From Gracilaria domingensis (taxonomy: Eukaryota > Rhodophyta > Florideophyceae > Gracilariales > Gracilariaceae): a stretch of DNA of 64,000 nucleotides. Shown here piece by piece: positions 8,066-45,954 of this stretch (the first letter of the stretch is position 1; each line of letters begins with the position of its first letter). The stretch lies in assembly GCA_022539475.1 (NCBI GenBank), contig VCMS01000051.1, forward strand, positions 124,001-188,000, given 5' to 3'. The position numbers were made by a program, and so were the translations under genes. The notes beneath the pieces are model-generated. The model was given only the letters and a program-made list of their open reading frames with translations, had not been told where the DNA came from and searched no databases.

Positions 8066-10612
8066 CTATCTTTCATCGTCACTTCTAAGATGTGAAGAAT
8101 GTTGTGGAGAGGAATCTCCTTTAATCCCAGCAGATGTAGATTCAATTCTGGCGTTAAGCTCAAACTTGTCAGTTTCGGACACATCCTGCAAAATATCTGG
8201 GGAACTCCGCGCCTTGCGGGACCCTGGATTTGATTGCAGGAAATGGGATACGCTGGGCCCCATTTCGCTCCATTCAATAGATTGACCATCTGGACGAGAG
8301 CGTGCTTTCCTAACAACCGTCGTCTCCGCAGTGCCGGATAGAGATGGTCTTTGTTCACCGCTCTTCGGCGCCCCAACTGCGACAGCCGTGGCTGCAGCAG
8401 CCAGAGCAAGCGAAGAAGAGGGAGGATCATTGGATGCACTAGCAAGGCGACGCGTCGATTGCGATAGGGTGGATCTTAGGGGTGGAAGGGCGCGGTCGTT
8501 GAGGCTTCCTTTCTTAGAAGACGTCCAGGTTGTTCCGGTGACCGTATACTGCTTCATAACGCGGTACAACTTGCGTGATATTCGTAGTAATCTTGCTGGG
8601 CGTTCGATGACCCTTGCAGTGAAGTCTGGGGCATAGATGTCGTCAGTTAAAGCACGAATTCCAAGAAATGTCCATGGACCAGCTTCGGACTTAAAGCCGT
8701 CATTTCCTGCGCTGATTTCAAGCCTTCCATTAATAATGAGAAATGCATTCTTTGTGGGAACCCCTCTGGTGTAGATTGTGGCATCAGGGACAACATGCGA
8801 CCGTCCCGTGACAACCACCTGACTAGAGGCATCCAGGGAAGCAATATCAGGAGCAGCTCCTCCAGGGATCGCGTCACCACTCTTTCCCACGACTAGGTCA
8901 CCAGAAAGGGCAGCAGCGGTTGTTGCCAAACCTGTGTTTCCAAGTATTGTTGAGCGGCTCATACTTTGGTCCTCTGAAGTATACTTGACTATTGGAATCT
9001 CGGCGAGCACCTGTCTCAATACATTGGTGTCGATGATGTTACCAGCAAACTCATCTGTATTGTTCGACAAGTACGACGCAACAACGAGAACTTCCTTCTC
9101 GGAAAGCAGTTCTTCATCATGTTTGGAGTCAAACATTTTCAAAACCTCAGGATGGATTGAACGTACACGCTTGACTCGCTGTTTGGATTTGTTGTCTGTA
9201 TACACATCGGTTTCATCCACGATATCCTTTCCTATGATTTCCTCAATAAGATCTTCCAGTGTAACGATTCCAATGGTGTCTGGGTCGTGTTGAGACCCTT
9301 CTTCTTTTCTCTGCACAATAGCCATATGACCACCCCCTTGGCGGAAAATATTGAGCATTTTGTTAAGAGTAGTGTCGAAAAAGACAAGCAGGACAGTTCT
9401 TCCGAAGAAGAGCAGAACAGTCTTAATTGGAACGGAATCCTCGGGATCTAATAAAATGAGATCTTTGGCAAAAAGCACACCAATGATGTTGTGCCTGCTC
9501 CTATCATAGACCGGGATGCGCGAGTGACCAGACTGAAACACAAGAAGCATAACCTCAAAGTTGAGAGAAAGGGACGCCTCGAGCATGAAAACGTCATTCA
9601 AGGGCGTCATAACCTCACACACGGTCTTCTGACTGAAGTCAAAAGCGCCGCCCAGCATGGTGATCTCGTCTTTTGTCAGCGGAGGATTGGAGGTCTCGGA
9701 TTCTCGTTCGCGATCTTTCTTGTCATGCTTCCGGCGCGTGAATTTCGAACGTGCGCTTCGCAGCAAACGGGAAGGAAGCGCCTTCTTGCTCCGAGATGTA
9801 TCTGAGGTGTTCTGCTGAATGGAAGAGGAGTTAGTGTCGGGGGCATTTGATGATTGACTGGAAACGTTGGGTTGCGGTGCAGGAGCAGCAAAAGCGCGCG
9901 TAGAGGTTTGGAGCGTTTGGTCTTTTGCGGATGGTTCTCTGGATTCGGGTTGGTACGGATGGATAGAGATTTGTTGCAGCTCGACAACGGCAACTTGGTC
10001 ATGACTGTTAGCGCGAGTGGCATCGACGTGTGAGTCGATAGGTTGCGCAGACGGTTCGCGCGACTGCGGCTTGCTGCTGGAAGAGGTGGCCTCATGGTGC
10101 ACAGTGCCGTGAATGGAAAGCAAGCTCTTCAACTGAGACTTGTTGTAGCGCGTGGCAGGCTCTCCGCCAAGGAAGAAGTCGAGCGCCTTGGCCGTCGTGA
10201 ACGAAAGCGGGGCGCTTATAAACATGATGGCACGAATGAACGGAACCGCATACGCACCGACAACAAGGCCGAAGCGGTGGCATACAGCCTGTGGTATGAT
10301 CTCGCCAATATACAGAATGGTAAAAGTAGAGGCAATAAAACCGGCAATGCCTCCAAACAGATCGGCGGTGACAATAGCCAGCGCGGAATTGACGGCTGTA
10401 TTGCCGATGAGCAAGGTGCACAGCAGCCAGTTGCCGTGCTTTCGCACGGGCAGAATGCGGCGAGCATACCACTTTTCCTTATCGGTACCAGACTCCGTGA
10501 GCACACGAAGGTCGATAATATCGAGCGACATGAGACCGAGCGTGAGGCCGGAAAAGGTGCCGGAAAGCACGACGCAAACAACGGTGACGACGACCTGCCA
10601 CCACAGCACCAT
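8066..10612 (-). CDS. CNNM/CorC-type divalent metal transporter (DUF21 + CBS pair + cNMP-like domain), 848 aa
   Basis: Members of this family move Mg2+ and related divalent cations across the plasma membrane or organelle membranes. Residues 1-165 are a DUF21 membrane domain (LSGTFSGLTLGLMSLD signature, then LLIGNTAVNSALAIVTADL and LYIGEIIPQAVCHRFGL). A Ser/Gln-rich linker follows to about 310. The CBS pair (about 315-475) includes VCEVMTPLNDVFML, HSRIPVYDRSRHNIIGVLFAKD and IGIVTLEDLIEEIIGKDIVDETD, all typical of CNNMs. At about 600-720 a cyclic-nucleotide-binding-homology fold is suggested by NAFLIINGRLEI...GPWTFLGIRAL. The tail is disordered and Ser-rich. The ATG at 10612 opens directly on the first membrane helix; no earlier in-frame ATG is needed. 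Some CNNMs have an extracellular N-terminal domain; it is absent here. Confidence 0.93.
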   Translation of the reverse strand: MVLWWQVVVTVVCVVLSGTFSGLTLGLMSLDIIDLRVLTESGTDKEKWYARRILPVRKHGNWLLCTLLIGNTAVNSALAIVTADLFGGIAGFIASTFTILYIGEIIPQAVCHRFGLVVGAYAVPFIRAIMFISAPLSFTTAKALDFFLGGEPATRYNKSQLKSLLSIHGTVHHEATSSSSKPQSREPSAQPIDSHVDATRANSHDQVAVVELQQISIHPYQPESREPSAKDQTLQTSTRAFAAPAPQPNVSSQSSNAPDTNSSSIQQNTSDTSRSKKALPSRLLRSARSKFTRRKHDKKDRERESETSNPPLTKDEITMLGGAFDFSQKTVCEVMTPLNDVFMLEASLSLNFEVMLLVFQSGHSRIPVYDRSRHNIIGVLFAKDLILLDPEDSVPIKTVLLFFGRTVLLVFFDTTLNKMLNIFRQGGGHMAIVQRKEEGSQHDPDTIGIVTLEDLIEEIIGKDIVDETDVYTDNKSKQRVKRVRSIHPEVLKMFDSKHDEELLSEKEVLVVASYLSNNTDEFAGNIIDTNVLRQVLAEIPIVKYTSEDQSMSRSTILGNTGLATTAAALSGDLVVGKSGDAIPGGAAPDIASLDASSQVVVTGRSHVVPDATIYTRGVPTKNAFLIINGRLEISAGNDGFKSEAGPWTFLGIRALTDDIYAPDFTARVIERPARLLRISRKLYRVMKQYTVTGTTWTSSKKGSLNDRALPPLRSTLSQSTRRLASASNDPPSSSLALAAAATAVAVGAPKSGEQRPSLSGTAETTVVRKARSRPDGQSIEWSEMGPSVSHFLQSNPGSRKARSSPDILQDVSETDKFELNARIESTSAGIKGDSSPQHSSHLRSDDER

Positions 10613-38180: not shown

Positions 38181-38697
38181 TGTTAGAACACTGGGTCTGA
38201 GGTTGAGAACGTGAACGATGGTGACTGCCCAGGAGAGGTCGGGCAGTCGACCAGGGTTTATATGGAGAACCGGACCTTCGAAAATAAGGTCGCTAACGCA
38301 GCTTTCTAGAATATCCCTCGAACTAATGTGTCTATGAGTACTGGCCCTTGCGTCGGAATTAGTGTAGAAACTGTGCGTAGAAATCGACAGTAGAGTGTTC
38401 TAGAAGCTTCTAAAAGTTTCTGTAACGTGTCCATTTGTAGAAGTTCCAGCAAGGCACCGAAACTATGAAGTCAGTCATGACGTCAACTGACGAGGCAGAC
38501 ATCACACGTGACATGTCTTGGTAACATTATGACAACTAATGTCAAACAAAGACTCTGAGGATCATTAGGGTATCAAATTGAATCGCTAGATCACGGGGAA
38601 TTCAAAGAAAGCATCAAAACATTAAATGACTAATTAAAAGCATAGCAATATAACAAATTCAAATAAAAACATGACCAGAATTAACGAAATCCTAACA
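38181..38697 (-). repeat. 3' LTR of the chromovirus, 517 bp
   Basis: Same sequence as 45438-45954 apart from a few substitutions. Begins TGTTAG and ends CTAACA on both strands. A TATA-like CCATATAAACC (minus strand, near 38260) is a candidate promoter. Confidence 0.95.
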
Positions 38698-39246: not shown

Positions 39247-41859
39247 TGTTGGTGATGGGTGGTTACTGGGCCCGGGAATGTTCAGAGGTTGTGGCTTCTT
39301 TTATACTGCTCGAGGAGGTCAAAACAGTTCTTGAGTTCGGATTCAGGGAGCCACATATTTTCGTGATCGGGATAACCAAGCCATTTGACAAGGTATTCTG
39401 ACTTGCGTTTCCGTTTTCGATGATTAAGAATTGCTTCCACATCATATTCTTCTGTTCCACCAGATAATTGGATGACTGTTGGCTTGGGCTGGGGTCTTCT
39501 GAAGTTATTGTCTTCATAGTATCTTCTGAGTAGTTGGCAATGAAACACGTCATGTATTTTTCACTGCTTCATGACAGTCCCTATATCAAGTCGAAAGGTT
39601 ACTGGGCTTACTTGTTCCGTGATTCTGAATGGACCACAGTACTTGATTCCGAGTTTGTTCCGTGGGCCTGTTTCGTCCATCTTGAGATTCTTCGTCGATA
39701 GCATGACGTAGTCACCAACTTTTAAGTCGCAAGGCGTTCGTTTCCGATTATAGTAGCTTTCTGAGTACTTGCTTATCTTGCTGATTTGGCTCCTAGCAAG
39801 CTTGACAGCATCTGAAATACTTGTCAGAAACTCAGAGGCGGCTTGATTCTGGGAAGTGATTGCATCCATTGGTAAAACAAGTGGTTCTTCTCCGTATGCG
39901 AGAAAGAATGGAGTAAATGACGTGGTAGAATTGACTGAAGAATTGTAAGCAACTTCGAATTGAATGAGGTGTTCATCCCAATTATTCTGCCTTTGGTTGA
40001 CAAAACATTTGATCATCTCTTCAATCTTCTTATTCATTACTTCGGTTTGTCCATCTGTCTGTGGGTGATATGCTGATGATGGCTTTAATTTTGTGCCAAG
40101 TGATCGAAATACTTCCTTCCAGAACTTACTCATAAATATTGAATCTCTATCGAATACTATGGAATCAGAAAGTCCATGATGACGATAGATATTCTCCAGA
40201 TATAACTTGGCTGTTTCTACAGCAGTGACATTCTTGGTTGTGGGAATGATGCGTACAAGTTTCGAAAGGCGATCGACTACTGCATATATGGCACTGTTTC
40301 CAGACTTAGTTCGTGGAAGCGGAGTAATGAAATCCATTGTGATCTGAGACCACTTCTTCAATGGGGGTTCTACTGGCTGGAGATATCCATGCGGCTTCTT
40401 GGTAATTGGCTTCGTCTCCTGACACTTCTGGCATGTCTTCGTGGAGGTGTACACGTCCTTCCTCAGGTTCTTCCAAAAGTAAGATTTCCAAATCCTTCTT
40501 AATGTCTTCTTAAATGCCATATGTCCTGATGAACGGAGATCATGATTCTCGAATAAAATCTTAGTTCTGATTTCTCCACTCGGTATACATAACTTATTCT
40601 TGTAGTAGAGAAGATTTCCTTTTCGTTCAAAGGGAAGTTCGGGATTCAGGTAAGCAGCTGAAAATTCGTTGTCCTTCTTATATCCATCAGTAAATGCGCG
40701 CATATCCTTCTTGGATATTTCACAAATAAGAGATAAAGAGTTCAACGGGTTGGTTCTGGAGACTGCTTCATCTAATAGAGAGAGGTTACTAGCCAGCGGA
40801 TCTTCAACATGCTTAGGATATCTTGAGAGAGCATCTGCAACTATGTGGGATTTCCTTTGATTGGTTCGAAAGTGAAATCAAACTCAACCATCCTTTCGAG
40901 CCATCTTACTTGACGTTGGGAAAGATTTGGCTGTGTTTGCAGATACTTCAGTGGAAAATGATCTGTACGCACTTTGAAGCGTTGTCCATGTAAGTAGACT
41001 CTCCAAACTCTTAACGTGTCTACAACTGCAAGAAGTTCTCGCTCGTGGGCGGCGTAGCGTTGCTCGGCTGGGTTCAAGGTTCTTGAATGAAATGCAACAG
41101 GTCGGGCAATACCGTTTTCTACTTGTTCCAATATTGCTCCTAGAGCATACTGAGATGCGTCAGTGGTTACGATGATAGGCAGTTTTGGGTCAAAATGACG
41201 GAGCACTGGTGTACTTGAAACTGCTTCTTTCAGATTTTTGAAGGCGTTTTCTTGATCCCCTCCCCACTTGAATGGGTTATTTCCACACAGAGCGGTTAGT
41301 GGTTTTGATATTTCGGAGCAGTTCTTAATAAATCGTCGGTAGTAATTAACAAGTCCAAGAAAAGCTTGAACACCGGTCTTATTCTTCGGTGTTTCCCAAT
41401 TTGTGATGGCTTTCACTTTTTGTTTCTCTACTGATATTCCTTCGGGTGTAACCACATGCCCGAGGTATTCAACCTCCTTCTTTAGAAATTCACTCTTTGA
41501 AAGCTTCCCATACAGCTTGTGTGCACGACGTTGGTCGAATACTTTTCTAATGTGTTCCATATGCTCCTCTACAGTTTTGCTGTAAATAAGAATGCCGTCG
41601 AGATACACCAGGACAAATTTATCCAAATGATGCTTCAGTACATTGTTCATTAAGCTCATGAAACTTGCGGGTGCGTTGGTGAGGCCGAGAGGTAGGACAA
41701 GAAACTCAAAATGACCATATCTAGTTCTGAAAGCGGTCAGTGGAATGGAGGTATGAGAGATTCAAATTTGGTGGTAACCCCACCTTAAATCGATTTTTGA
41801 AAATACTTTTGCGCCACGGAGTTGGTCAAAAATATCATCAATCCTTGTAATAGGGTACC

Positions 41860-42320
41860 CTTTGATATAAAGTGATGCGCAATGGATGTCCATCTAATGA
41901 AAAATTGGGACATCTATGGGACATTAGTTTGATATCTTCTGCGCATCCAGGATATCCGAATGATATACCGTGGTACCCCGTTGGATGCGCCTAATTGATG
42001 CCCTTTACATGTCCTTGGGATGTACAGAAACTATTCCGATGATATTCATATGATGCACGAAGATATGTCCCATGGATATCCGGAAATCCGCTGTGCATTA
42101 CTTGGACATCACAAAATCCAATGGACATCTCTTCGTACATCATATGCGTACCAGGTGATTATCATTTGGATATACTTCATGCATCATCTGAGCATCATTT
42201 ACGTGTATCATATGGACATCTTAAGGAGATCAAATGGACATCTTCAGGTTTCGTAATTCTAATATGGGTTATCTGAAGGATATCATCCGGACATCAATTC
42301 ACCTCTCTGGGGTAACTATT
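41860..42320. mobile_element. GGACATC/GATATCC-rich insertion inside RT
   Basis: Splits the RT between LTIK and YPITRIDD. It is built from degenerate repeats of GATGTCC, GATATCC and ATATGATG-like words, mostly in both orientations. ATCAAA occurs at both edges on the RT strand and may be a short target duplication. Similar sequence makes up about 63400-63950. No ORF; probably a small non-autonomous element. Confidence 0.6.
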
Positions 42321-43337
42321 TTTTGATGGTCAACTTATTGAGGGCTCGGTAATCAATGCAAAGTCTTAGGCTCCCATCCTTCTTTGCTGCGAAAAGAACA
42401 GGGGCACCCCAAGGGCTTGAACTAGGTCGAATAAAACCTTGTTCCAAAAGTTCTTGGAGTTGCTTCTTTAGCTCTTTCAACTCTTTATCGGACATTCAAT
42501 ATACGCCTTTCTTCTGAGGTGTTGCTTCAGGGGATAACTCGATATGAAAATCTTGTTCTCGGTGAGGGGGTAATCCTTTTGGTAATTTCTCTGGAAATAG
42601 GTCCTTGTATTCTTCAAGTAGTTCTTTGAGTTTATGATCATTCGCTGGTTCATAGGTTTCTTCTTTTGAGGGCCAAAGTGCTACAACAAATACAGGTAGC
42701 TTCCTTCGAATTGACTTCTTGATTGTGTTCACAGAAATTAACTTCTCGTTCTTCTTAATGTTTGCTTTGATGAAAATGGTTCTGGAATTGTGAACAAGAG
42801 CAATTTCATTGGTTCGGTGGTTGATATAGGGGTTGTATTCATATAGCCAGTCTTTTCCTAAAATGACGTCATATCCGTATAATACACATATTGCAAAGCG
42901 TCTCTTTTCTCGTAGTTCTTCAATCTGGATATCTACTCCATCTTCTCGGGTTTCCTGGAGCACAGTAATGGAACCGTTGGCCATTTCCGCTTCATAACTA
43001 CTGTCAATGGTTGGGATCTTCATGCTTTTGCAGATGGCTTTGGACAAATAACTGATTTCGGAACCGTTATCGAACACAGCCGTACATTTTCTGCCATCGA
43101 TGAATACATATGCAAGAAGTAGTCCAACAGAGGGGGTTTCAAATGGTGACGCTAAGCGTGAGGTAAGAAGTTTATGTCTTCCATTGCTTAATATTTTTTC
43201 TTGCGTACGATGTTTATCTGCCGATTCAATGGGTACGGGGTTTACTGGCTTAATCAATGGTTGCGATTCGATGGAATTCAGTAGGATGCAATGATGGTCC
43301 GGTGGAACTGACGTGGGTTCTTCAGATGACCCTGGAG

Positions 43338-44210
43338 TCAGTTCCTCTGGGAGTTTTTTGGGCACTGTTTATCGCGTGCCATGTGTCCAGGTTGTCGACA
43401 GCTGAAACAGAGTCCCAACTTTCGACAGTTCTCGCGCTCTTCCTTGGTTAACTTCTTCAGCTTCATATTTCCAATATCCATGGGTATCGGTCCTTGAGAT
43501 GATCCAGAGCCGGCAGATTGCCTGCCAAATCGCGCCTGTCCACCGCTTCGGAACGCACATTCCACCCGCTCAGCGTCTTTCATGGCATCAGTCAAAGATT
43601 TGTACTCATTGGTGCAAAGCTCTTTCCAGATATAACTTTTCAAGCCTCTGGTATATCTGTCGATTTGCTCTTCCATACTGATGTTGGGGATTTCCAGCAC
43701 AATCTTGAGGAAGTCTTCATTCAACTGTTGAACATCTTTGTACTGCTTCCACTTGCTCAGTTTGTCCCGAGCAAGTTTCTCTTTGTTGACAATAGTAAAT
43801 CGTTTCTGAAGATGTTCAAAGAGTTCCTCAAGGGTTTGCAGCTCCAGTCCATTTCTTTGCTGCGCGAGATACCACTCATGAGCAGCTCCACTGATGTAAC
43901 TAAGCGCAATCGTTAATGCTTTGTCGTCGGGGGTTCCATCAAGATAATTGCGAATATGAGTGATCCAACTGTCAATGTTTTGCCTTCCAGTGAACGTTGG
44001 GGGCTTGTTGATCTTTAGATTCGTGGCTGGGCTGTCCTTATTGGCTAGGGCACTGAGTGAGGTCTCGAGAGCGGATATCTTCGTTTGCGCTTCTTGCTTC
44101 AACAATTCCATCTGAGCCCGTGTTTCATCAAGCGCGCGAGCCATGCTTTGGATCATTTGGCCTGCACGCACCTGTGGGGGTGTTCCTGGGTTGCCTTGAG
44201 GGGTCGTCAT
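43338..44210 (-). CDS. Chromovirus gag, 290 aa
   Basis: Structural protein of the retrotransposon particle. The ATG at 44210 (MTTPQGNPGTPPQ) is used because the frame's upstream part lacks an ATG. Residues about 15-65 are helical/coiled (TRAQMELLKQEAQTKISALETSL); 75-215 is the capsid-like Retrotrans_gag domain (PPTFTGRQNIDSWITHIRNYL ... SYISGAAHEWYLAQ ... FTIVNKEKLARDKLSKWKQ ... DRYTRGLKSYIWKEL). A nucleocapsid knuckle near the end reads CFSCRQPGHMARDKQC, i.e. C-x2-C-x4-H-x6-C, two residues longer than the usual x4. It ends in TGA at 43340-43338, 13 nt after the slippery site. The frame is intact, in contrast to pol. Confidence 0.92.
   Translation of the reverse strand: MTTPQGNPGTPPQVRAGQMIQSMARALDETRAQMELLKQEAQTKISALETSLSALANKDSPATNLKINKPPTFTGRQNIDSWITHIRNYLDGTPDDKALTIALSYISGAAHEWYLAQQRNGLELQTLEELFEHLQKRFTIVNKEKLARDKLSKWKQYKDVQQLNEDFLKIVLEIPNISMEEQIDRYTRGLKSYIWKELCTNEYKSLTDAMKDAERVECAFRSGGQARFGRQSAGSGSSQGPIPMDIGNMKLKKLTKEERENCRKLGLCFSCRQPGHMARDKQCPKNSQRN
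43353..43359 (-). promoter_or_regulatory. -1 ribosomal frameshift site A AAA AAC
   Basis: In the gag frame the codons are CCA AAA AAC, giving the canonical X XXY YYZ heptamer in the correct phase. Slipping back one base joins gag to the protease frame (K-K-L-P-E-E-L). The gag TGA follows 13 nt later. A downstream pseudoknot was not worked out. Confidence 0.85.
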
Positions 44211-44359
44211 GGTATGAGCTGCGCGAACGGAGAACCTTTGAAATTGGCTCAAATCAGGGGGTTGCCAAAATAAATTGTCTAATTTTTTGAAAAGTGCAAA
44301 TCAAGCCTTGCGCTGCTACTTTAAAAAATTTCAATTTGCAGGTTGCAGGCAAGCAGTGC

Positions 44360-44425
44360 CCCGCGCCTGGCCTAGTGGGTAGGCGGCGCCGGTGCAATTT
44401 CAGAGGTTCTAGGTTCGATTCCCTT
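44360..44425 (+). other. tRNA-like A-box/B-box sequence (SINE-head candidate)
   Basis: TGGCCTAGTGGGTAGG fits a Pol III A box and GGTTCGATTCC, about 43 bp later, is a perfect B box. The T-stem and acceptor do not pair well, so it is not a functional tRNA; a tRNA-derived SINE head is more likely. It lies on the strand opposite to the retrotransposon, in the spacer between its zinc-finger ORF and gag. Confidence 0.4.
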
Positions 44426-44656
44426 CGCTGTAAGTTGTAATTGCAGCCGGAGTGGTTCAATTAAGGTTTCTTCAGTTCAATTACAAAGCGTAAAGCGACT
44501 GGGAAGATAGTAAGCCCTGTACGGCGACTTCTTCCTTGACAATGCTAAGCAATACGAACGTAGCGGAAACTGGAACACAACCACAAACGGTAGCTTAAAG
44601 GGTAGAATAACCGATTCTTGGAAACTTTTGTCAGCACAAGGTGTTTACGTTATAAT

Positions 44657-45422
44657 TTACTTGAAATAACGCTGTTGACGTCGGTTTTCCTTGTTGACAG
44701 CTGCTTGGTGCTTGCGTCCACCTCGGTGATCCTCGTAATGCTTCCAATTAATGAACGAGAGTATACCACATTCGTAACAGCCCGGTGGGGAGCGCTTGTT
44801 CTGGAGCTTGTTGCGGTGTCGGCTACCAGACAAATGTTCGCGAAGTTGCACTCGGCTATTGAAACGGAGTTCACAGTCGTCACACCTGGGGGTCTTCAAG
44901 CGACGTCGAAGGTTACGTATACGCCGTCGCTTGATTCGATCGGTGGCCACGCGAAGGATATGGATATTAGCCGCGTCGTCTATGCGGAGCAGATGACGTG
45001 GAGTACCCTCGGTAGCCCCGGTAACTGATCGGTTCCTTGAAATCGGATTGCTGTCAACAGGATCGGGTTGTTGACGAGCTGGTGACGACGGTGGTGACGG
45101 TGTGTATGAAGGTGGTGTACTCGGTTCCAAGGTGGACACGGCAGCGGAAACAGGGGTTTCGGTGGTGTTGACAGGGGGTGGCGGCGGTGGCGGCGATGAC
45201 GGCGGTTCGGTGGATATTTCCGTGTTCGTATAGAACGACGGCGATGACGGCGGTACTTGGGATCGGCGTATTGAGCTCACTGGAAACACCCAAATTGGGT
45301 CAGAAATCAACAGTCAGTAAAGAGCTGGACGTCTGTGGCTCATCCAAACCTAGGAAATTTTGTATAGCAAAATCCACTAGGGCTGGATGGTCACTCAGTT
45401 TCAAATGAGCGCAATACTTACT
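44657..45422 (-). CDS. Chromovirus 5' ORF: protein with two U1-type C2H2 zinc fingers, 207 aa, spliced
   Basis: The exon 44657-45279 has no ATG of its own. On the minus strand a good donor (GCAA|GTAAGT, intron starts 45421), a branch-point-like TTTACTGACTG (near 45320) and acceptor TTTCCAG (45280) define a 142-nt intron. Joining base 45422 (A) to 45279 (TG...) makes ATG in frame with the exon; the coding total is 624 nt (207 codons plus stop). Residues about 10-75 are Pro/Ser/Thr-rich. Two fingers follow: CDDCELRFNSRVQLREHLSGSRH (C-x2-C-x12-H-x5-H) and CYECGILSFINWKHYEDHRGGRKH (C-x2-C-x13-H-x5-H), the spacing of U1/matrin-type fingers that usually bind structured RNA or DNA. A basic linker and tail surround them. 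Structure is seen; splicing and function are inferred. Confidence 0.75.
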
Positions 45423-45437
45423 TGCGATGGCTACCAA
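45421..45437 (-). other. Putative primer-binding site overlapping the splice donor
   Basis: Directly inside the 5' LTR the minus strand reads T-TGGTAGCCATCGCAAG. TGGTAGCC would pair with a tRNA ending GGCTACCA. Its last bases are the splice donor of the zinc-finger transcript, so primer binding and splicing use the same sequence. Confidence 0.6.
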
Positions 45438-45954
45438 TGTTAGAACACTGCGTCTGAGGTTGAGAACGTGAACGATGGTGACTGCCGAGGAGAGGTCGGG
45501 CAGTCGACCAGGGTTTATATGGAGAACCGAACCTTCGAAAATAAGGTCGCTAACGCAGCTTTCTAGAATATCCCTCGAACTAATGTGTCTATGAGTACTG
45601 GCCCTTGCGTCGGAATTAGTGTAGAAACTGTGCGTAGAAATCGACAGTAGAGTGTTCTAGAAGCTTCTAAAAGTTTCTGTAACGTGTCCATTTGTAGAAG
45701 TTCCAGCAAGGCACCGAAACTATGAAGTCAGTCATGACGTCAACTGACGAGGCAGACATCACACGTGACATGTCTTGGTAACATTATGACTACTAATGTC
45801 AAACAAAGACTCTGAGGATCATTAGGGTATCAAATTGAATCGCTAGATCACGGGAAATTCAAAGAAAGCATCAAAACATTAAATGACTAACTAAAAGCAT
45901 AGCAATACAACAAATTCAAATAAAAACATGACCAGAATTAACGAAATCCTAACA
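45438..45954 (-). repeat. 5' LTR of the chromovirus, 517 bp
   Basis: Partner of 38181-38697. Transcription of the element should start here and run toward lower coordinates. Confidence 0.95.

Follow-up and report, generated by a model that had tools for sequence, protein, structure and literature searches.

A chromovirus of the red alga Gracilaria domingensis carrying a zinc-finger gene with a start codon predicted to be made by splicing

The element in the window

The window analysed here is a stretch of 64,000 nucleotides from the red alga Gracilaria domingensis, and the element described below lies on its minus strand. The 5′ LTR (45438–45954, 517 bp, ending ...TAACA) pairs as a direct repeat with the 3′ LTR (38181–38697), the two being 98.6% identical over 517 bp with 7 mismatches. 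The gag ORF (43338–44210) starts with an ATG at position 44210 in the context ACCATGA and shows a Ty3_capsid match above the cut-off (E = 3.2e-9), and a zf-CCHC knuckle in the Gag sequence scores just under the cut-off (E = 6.2e-4, 20.2 bits against 20.8). A protease region (42496–43365; RVP_2, E = 4e-6), the C-terminal part of reverse transcriptase with RNase H (40841–41659; RT_RNaseH, E = 8.7e-36), integrase (39561–40745; Integrase_H2C2, E = 2.9e-16; rve, E = 8.4e-8) and, after integrase, a chromodomain (39282–39548; Chromo, E = 1.1e-18) are also present. The pol order of protease, reverse transcriptase, RNase H and integrase is that of Ty3/Gypsy. Judged by its LTRs and by these Pfam matches to capsid, RT/RNase H, integrase and chromodomain, the element is a Ty3/Gypsy chromovirus, as the original prediction had called it. 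In the reverse transcriptase region, positions 41761–42499, the list of frames of at least 180 codons shows no long open frame; thus the pol of the window copy is interrupted, though the zinc-finger and gag ORFs are open.

A TATA-like ATATAAA is read in the 5′ LTR at 45514–45520, and transcription would start near position 45490. The LTR is adjoined by the primer-binding-site-like sequence TGGTAGCCATCGCAA (45422–45436, by sequence reading), and on the minus strand the order is LTR (45954–45438), then TTGGTAGCCATCGCAA, then GTAAGT. Among copies of the element the primer-binding site is found in two forms, GTAGCCATCGC and, one C shorter, GTAGCATCGC.

Copies were sought in the same red-algal genome, 77.9 Mb in 680 contigs. 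Table 1 of PMC10388701 gives introns in 23–29% of the genes of four Gracilaria species, and on these figures spliceosomal introns are ordinary there. A nearby gene of the window, annotated here as a CNNM metal transporter (8069–10612, minus strand), is 71% identical to its counterpart in Gracilariopsis chorda and 78% to a transcript with the prefix GEZJ, which places the host among the Gracilariaceae or near them.

A predicted start codon at the exon junction

Exon 1 ends ...GCAA with its last base, A, at position 45422, and the predicted intron starts at the next base. This intron (45280–45421, 142 nt) lies just 3′ of the primer-binding site, displays an A/GTAAGT donor and a TTTCCAG acceptor, and contains CTGAC twice, at 45303–45299 and 45317–45313. 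When A (45422) and TG (45279) are brought together across the intron, an in-frame ATG results (ATG AGC TCA), with a total of 624 nt, or 207 codons and a TAA. The zinc-finger frame of the window copy has no in-frame ATG when the splice is left out. Intron boundaries, CTGAC, frame and lengths had all been given in the original prediction, and every coordinate is correct on the minus strand; its statement that the zinc-finger exon is devoid of an ATG, which is made only by joining, holds as well for the zinc-finger frame.

Exon 2 (44657–45279) encodes a finger of the zf-met/U1-like C2H2 type (44816–44887; PF12874, E = 1.2e-7). Downstream, sequence reading shows a second C2H2-like finger of the form CYEC...H...H (44708–44779), which is unmatched by Pfam in the window copy and aligns with finger 2 of the families B and C described below.

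Conservation among family A copies

The 766-bp segment comprising the exon-1 A, the predicted intron and exon 2 is found in at least 40 genomic copies at 96–99% identity (40 of the 57 candidates scored). Family A was aligned as 55 rows, the window and 54 other genomic places, divergent ones included. The exon-1 A, the GT, the AG and the TG are all kept together in 48 of the 55. The seven exceptions consist of two incomplete rows (L024, L064), one with the donor lost (L051), three with the acceptor lost (L050, L060, L062) and one rearranged (L065). Counting only rows with letters at the position concerned, 52 of 53 have the GT and 50 of 54 the AG.

In 34 of the 55 rows no stop interrupts the ORF between the joined ATG and its natural end. 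Copies with a normal ATG, or without GT/AG, had been named beforehand as one observation that would count against a splice-made start. Among the 34 full-ORF rows, both splice dinucleotides, GT and AG, are present in 33, all of which lack any other Met in the ORF; L060 is the sole row that keeps the full ORF and has lost the AG.

Genome-wide, the acceptor pattern, with up to three mismatches, is found at 51 family A places with AG intact in 49. The donor pattern is found at only 17 family A places, with GT intact in 16; the number is small because the primer-binding site is one base shorter in many copies. Mismatches to the window at splice-critical positions amount to 9 of 576 in all 54 other rows, against 244 of 7046 in the rest of the intron. 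Close rows show 1 of 433 against 100 of 5342, but in the 13 divergent rows they are 8 of 143 against 144 of 1704, which is hardly better conserved. The comparison of splice sites with the intron background is thus mixed, and since the aligned rows are related to each other no P value is claimed for it.

The window intron folds better than its shuffles (z = −3.2, 1 of 200 as good) and forms a long stem after the donor. A common fold for 32 of the 37 distinct introns, with five decayed or incomplete rows left out (L024, L051, L065, L066, L067), is weak at −15.4 kcal/mol, and only 1 of its 33 pairs shows a change on both sides. The intron as a packaging signal acting through RNA structure was therefore set aside, as the common fold is weak and shows no covariation support.

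Families B and C

A protein search of the genome yielded about 80 places of a second type, family B, most with a 175 amino acid open frame, and the two family B fingers are related to those of family A (E = 9e-5). Five loci were read (L053–L057). These display A/GTAAGT, CTACTAAC, which by its consensus we take to be a textbook signal, and TTTCACATCAAG/TG, and there is no ATG in the ORF of any of the five; in one, L055, the donor is lost (CTAAGT). Removal of a 69-nt intron from L057 gives ATG CCA and 143 codons. The family B donor pattern is present at 134 places genome-wide; 99 of the 100 listed keep the GT, and 22 read GTAGGT. The acceptor pattern is present at 122 places, and the 100 listed all retain AG, with TG kept in 99. 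The pair L053–L056 shows dS 0.62 and dN 0.059.

It was considered that the family B zinc-finger ORF lies 3′ of the primer-binding site as in family A, and this was rejected as the ORF was found inside the LTR. The LTR, its end reading ...TTTTCA ahead of TGGTACTCTCGCC, encloses the zinc-finger ORF, the intron and the first gag codons; thus the genome-wide place counts above 100 are of LTRs and not of whole elements. A 3′ LTR of family B was sought in two short stretches (L076, L077), with no match. Solo LTRs of this family (seen from L057:1600–2400 and from L053, L055 and L056) could carry the zinc-finger gene together with its own promoter.

Family C is intact in one copy, L071. Here (L071:644–914) an ATG and 19 nt are followed by a 252-nt GT-AG interval containing a stop, and then by the zinc-finger ORF. 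The sequence reads ATG GCG CAA CGC ATT ACA G/GTACGC ... CTACAG/TA, in phase with that ORF, and the ATG sits within a TGGCGC primer-binding-site-like stretch. L074 is a family C copy with a broken donor. An earlier out-of-frame ATG is found 3′ of the TATA box, so that family C supports the theme less cleanly. Three further loci (L072, L073, L075) had no clear zinc-finger start and were left out of the comparison.

The coincidence of a donor with an AG/TG that together start the ORF with an in-frame ATG was sought in dinucleotide shuffles, a test defined after the feature was seen. In 5000 shuffles it arose in 0.08% (AGTAAGT) to 0.6% (AGTRAG) for family A, and in 0.24–1.9% of 5000 for family B. 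As the fingers of the two families are related, these results do not count as proofs independent of each other; if the arrangement was inherited from a common ancestor, that would itself imply long conservation.

The joined exons of family A match no genomic place, either exactly with a gap of 0–30 or with up to three mismatches, and those of family B match none with up to three mismatches. There are thus 0 intronless places, compared with 51 (A) and 122 (B) that bear the acceptor, and spliced RNA is either not reverse-transcribed or not made. The absence fits exclusion of spliced RNA from packaging, as in retroviruses, and equally fits no splicing.

The leader before gag

Between the start of exon 2 and that of gag, the window leader contains 1 ATG where 10.3 are expected. 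The family B copy L057 has 0 between its predicted transcription start and gag, where 12.0 are expected. ATG is the most depleted of the 64 trinucleotides before gag in both; in five controls taken from gag, pol and flanks its rank is 12th, 17th, 23rd, 48th and 58th of 64, and a sixth control, the family A LTR, has too few expected ATGs to be ranked. The approximately 880 nt of leader hold 0–3 ATGs in 54 of the 55 rows, and L062 has 6. In dinucleotide shuffles, the leader ATG count was reached in 0 of 2000 cases for family A, and gave P = 0.0005 for family B (exon 2 to gag).

The non-coding spacer between the zinc-finger stop and gag (44211–44656) is free of ATG, with 4.15 expected over 44656–44215 (P = 0.0045); the family B spacer likewise has 0 against 3.84 (P = 0.0095). 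When the ORFs alone are considered and their amino acids and codon usage are kept constant, the depletion does not reach significance (A, P = 0.065; B, P = 0.16), so most of the signal stems from the remainder of the leader.

Two mini-ORFs precede gag in the unspliced window RNA, one of 9 codons (45343) and one of 7 codons (44771). The base at −3 is G or A for the spliced AUGs and A for the gag AUGs, and a pyrimidine, T or C, for the mini-ORF ATGs. An ATG-poor leader is needed if splicing is to choose between zinc-finger protein and Gag; as a refinement of the proposal that gag is the first large ORF of the unspliced RNA, the path to gag is not ATG-free. The depletion, which the original prediction does not mention, is to be expected if ribosomes scan unspliced RNA all the way from the cap to gag. 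It also implies that the splice-made codon would be the first AUG of the spliced RNA.

Versions of exon 2

Exon 2 is found in at least three strongly diverged versions among the copies (dS 0.5–1.0). The window copy compared with L052, L059, L060, L061, L062 and L063 shows dS 0.6–0.85 and dN/dS 0.21–0.25, and the finger half of exon 2 in the same six comparisons shows dN/dS 0.10–0.15. L068 against L060 or L061 gives dS 0.93–1.03 with dN/dS 0.18–0.20. Other pairs are less constrained, e.g. the window with L068, L069 and L047 (0.27–0.41) and L059 with L060 (0.37). Within one ORF version the ratio is nearly neutral (L060–L061, 0.71; L061–L063, 0.93), as expected from decay after insertion, and the decayed rows L065 and L066 show 0.73 and 0.98. 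The ORF start at the junction reads M.S..RSQ in all nine versions compared. By the comparison of the window with its six diverged copies, the element has an extra conserved ORF besides gag-pol.

L059–L063 differ from the window by 7–11% in gag and 6–11% in the intron, and by 23–32% in the N-terminal half of exon 2. As the backbone differs far less than exon 2, exon 2 behaves as an exchanged cassette. The substitution pattern suggests an old cassette under purifying selection, with the splice arrangement kept around it. The exchange of exon 2 (window 44657–45279; L052, L059–L063) looks as if it had come about by template switching.

What the zinc-finger protein may do

The family A protein displays one finger above the Pfam cut-off, zf-met, and zf-C2H2_jaz falls below it (E = 0.0013). 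In families B and C both models are above cut-off with two stretches each, and zf-C2H2_jaz reaches 3.2e-9 in B and 2.2e-10 in C. In the PDB the family B protein matches best to ZFa, which binds RNA (1zu1, E = 0.0025), and to ZNF622, a factor of ribosome biogenesis (E = 0.0035); the DNA-binding fingers of ZBTB7A and CTCF match more weakly (E = 0.2–0.8). The family A protein has no useful PDB match, the best being a ribosomal protein at E = 0.033. From the finger models the product is probably of RNA-binding type.

C2H2 fingers in general are able to bind DNA, and a protein with DNA as its target, such as a factor that regulates transcription or brings about silencing at the LTR, would go with the ZBTB7A and CTCF fingers among the weaker family B matches and with a family A protein that resembles nothing useful in the PDB. 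We consider this unlikely, since the best models are zf-met and the double-stranded-RNA-binding zf-C2H2_jaz and since ZFa and ZNF622 head the family B matches, though the family A fingers by themselves give a weak zf-C2H2_jaz score. An RNA-binding protein may act on the element's own RNA, e.g. in export, stability or packaging of the unspliced form. Our preferred guess, by analogy with the Cer1 protein CERV taken up below, is that the protein serves the unspliced RNA of its own element in a Rev-like role.

A set of 5.8 billion predicted proteins yielded no homologue at E ≤ 1 for family A (829 candidates) or family B (18 candidates), in one search each that needs shared 5-residue words. The start is thus unconfirmed by any transcript-derived protein. 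Annotation may miss such genes, as the ATG is absent from the genomic ORF.

Proposed switch and alternatives

The arrangement suggests a red-algal chromovirus with an accessory zinc-finger gene between the primer-binding site and gag, the start codon of which is made by a splice, and which would switch to Gag when unspliced. We give this reading a probability of roughly 75%. The LTR promoter would produce one RNA. Removal of the 142-nt intron would join A to TG as the first AUG, and the zinc-finger protein would be made. If the intron is retained, scanning ribosomes would encounter no AUG ahead of that of gag except those of the two weak mini-ORFs, and this RNA would also be the genome for packaging. 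We infer both that splicing occurs and that it switches translation. Of the splice switch between zinc-finger protein and Gag that had been put forward, the part that can be read in sequence stands, i.e. the start assembled across GT-AG in 48 of 55 rows and again in family B, and the ATG-poor leader; splicing, the regulatory role and the inability of unspliced RNA to give the zinc-finger protein remain predicted, since translation might conceivably begin at a GUG in the same codon position.

The ATG-depleted leader up to gag implies translation of unspliced RNA, and 0 intronless places against 51 and 122 acceptor-bearing ones imply that unspliced RNA gets copied. Both make it somewhat unlikely that splicing is constitutive and unregulated, with an ordinary 5′ intron, Gag coming from a minority of unspliced RNA and no regulatory switch, even though the donor match is strong and introns are found in 23–29% of the genes of the four species in Table 1 of PMC10388701.

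Quite improbable is a zinc-finger ORF that starts without splicing at a non-AUG codon, the splice-like signals being coincidence or relics: a GTG does stand in frame exactly at the junction in families A and B (AG/TG itself reads GTG), intronless places are absent for both, and L060 has a full ORF despite its lost AG, but the coincidence would be needed in two families, at 0.08–1.9% each in shuffles (shared descent is possible, the fingers being related), the family B intron carries CTACTAAC, family C has a GT-AG interval with an internal stop between ATG and ORF, and the −3 base of the GUG would be C in family A, a poor context.

Returning to the splice-made start, a wider form of the proposal would be an old switch common to red-algal LTR retrotransposons, in which the start of an RNA-binding regulator is assembled by splicing, the leader is purged of strong AUGs, the regulator acts in a Rev-like way and the conserved intron marks the RNA for packaging. 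This wider form is doubtful at present. If true, it would represent a further origin of control in the style of complex retroviruses, in algae.

Comparison with known systems

Splice-dependent expression in LTR elements is already known from copia, BARE1, Ogre, CRR and Bagy2, as listed in PMC3735527. In the barley Copia element BARE1, a 104-nt facultative intron sets what one nearly full-length RNA encodes (PMC3735527). The element described here is similar in that a short intron is predicted to decide the coding of one RNA. However, by the account given there the BARE1 splice creates a stop and raises Gag, whereas here it would create a start upstream of gag.

The closest known function appears to be that of CERV, a regulator made from a spliced mRNA of the C. 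elegans LTR retrotransposon Cer1. According to the description in PMC10309623, CERV is required for export of the unspliced RNA; it consists of 517 aa encoded by a five-exon mRNA, the first three exons having their frame and N-terminus in common with gag, and may contain a zinc-finger loop. As compared by that description, both elements would have an extra protein from a spliced mRNA (predicted here) and an unspliced RNA that is genome and gag-pol mRNA. Unlike CERV, the red-algal protein has a separate ORF upstream of gag with its start made by the splice. Spliced and unspliced RNAs that use different start codons are also described for GCR1 of yeast (PMC7826247), but GCR1 is a host gene and both of its starts are present without any splicing, the first in exon 1 and the other in the intron (PMC7826247).

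In the open-access literature searched, no report was found of a splice-made start codon in an LTR retrotransposon, or of these red-algal elements. The question addressed is an old one, i.e. how one retroelement RNA serves as message for several proteins and as genome. If the proposal is true, a start codon absent until the RNA is spliced, in a leader where no other strong AUGs remain, would solve it very economically. To our knowledge, regulatory proteins from spliced RNA have been demonstrated in few groups outside vertebrate retroviruses.

In complex retroviruses such as HIV-1 the major splice donor lies shortly 3′ of the primer-binding site, and in HIV-1 the unspliced RNA gives Gag and is packaged, and spliced RNA gives regulatory proteins. 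The predicted donor of the window copy is likewise found just 3′ of the primer-binding site, the regulatory role here being putative. In the env mRNA of avian sarcoma/leukosis virus, splicing links a start codon with a few further codons, all 5′ of the donor, to a distant ORF. Family C resembles this arrangement, whereas families A and B are without the upstream ATG and the codon itself would be assembled by the splice.
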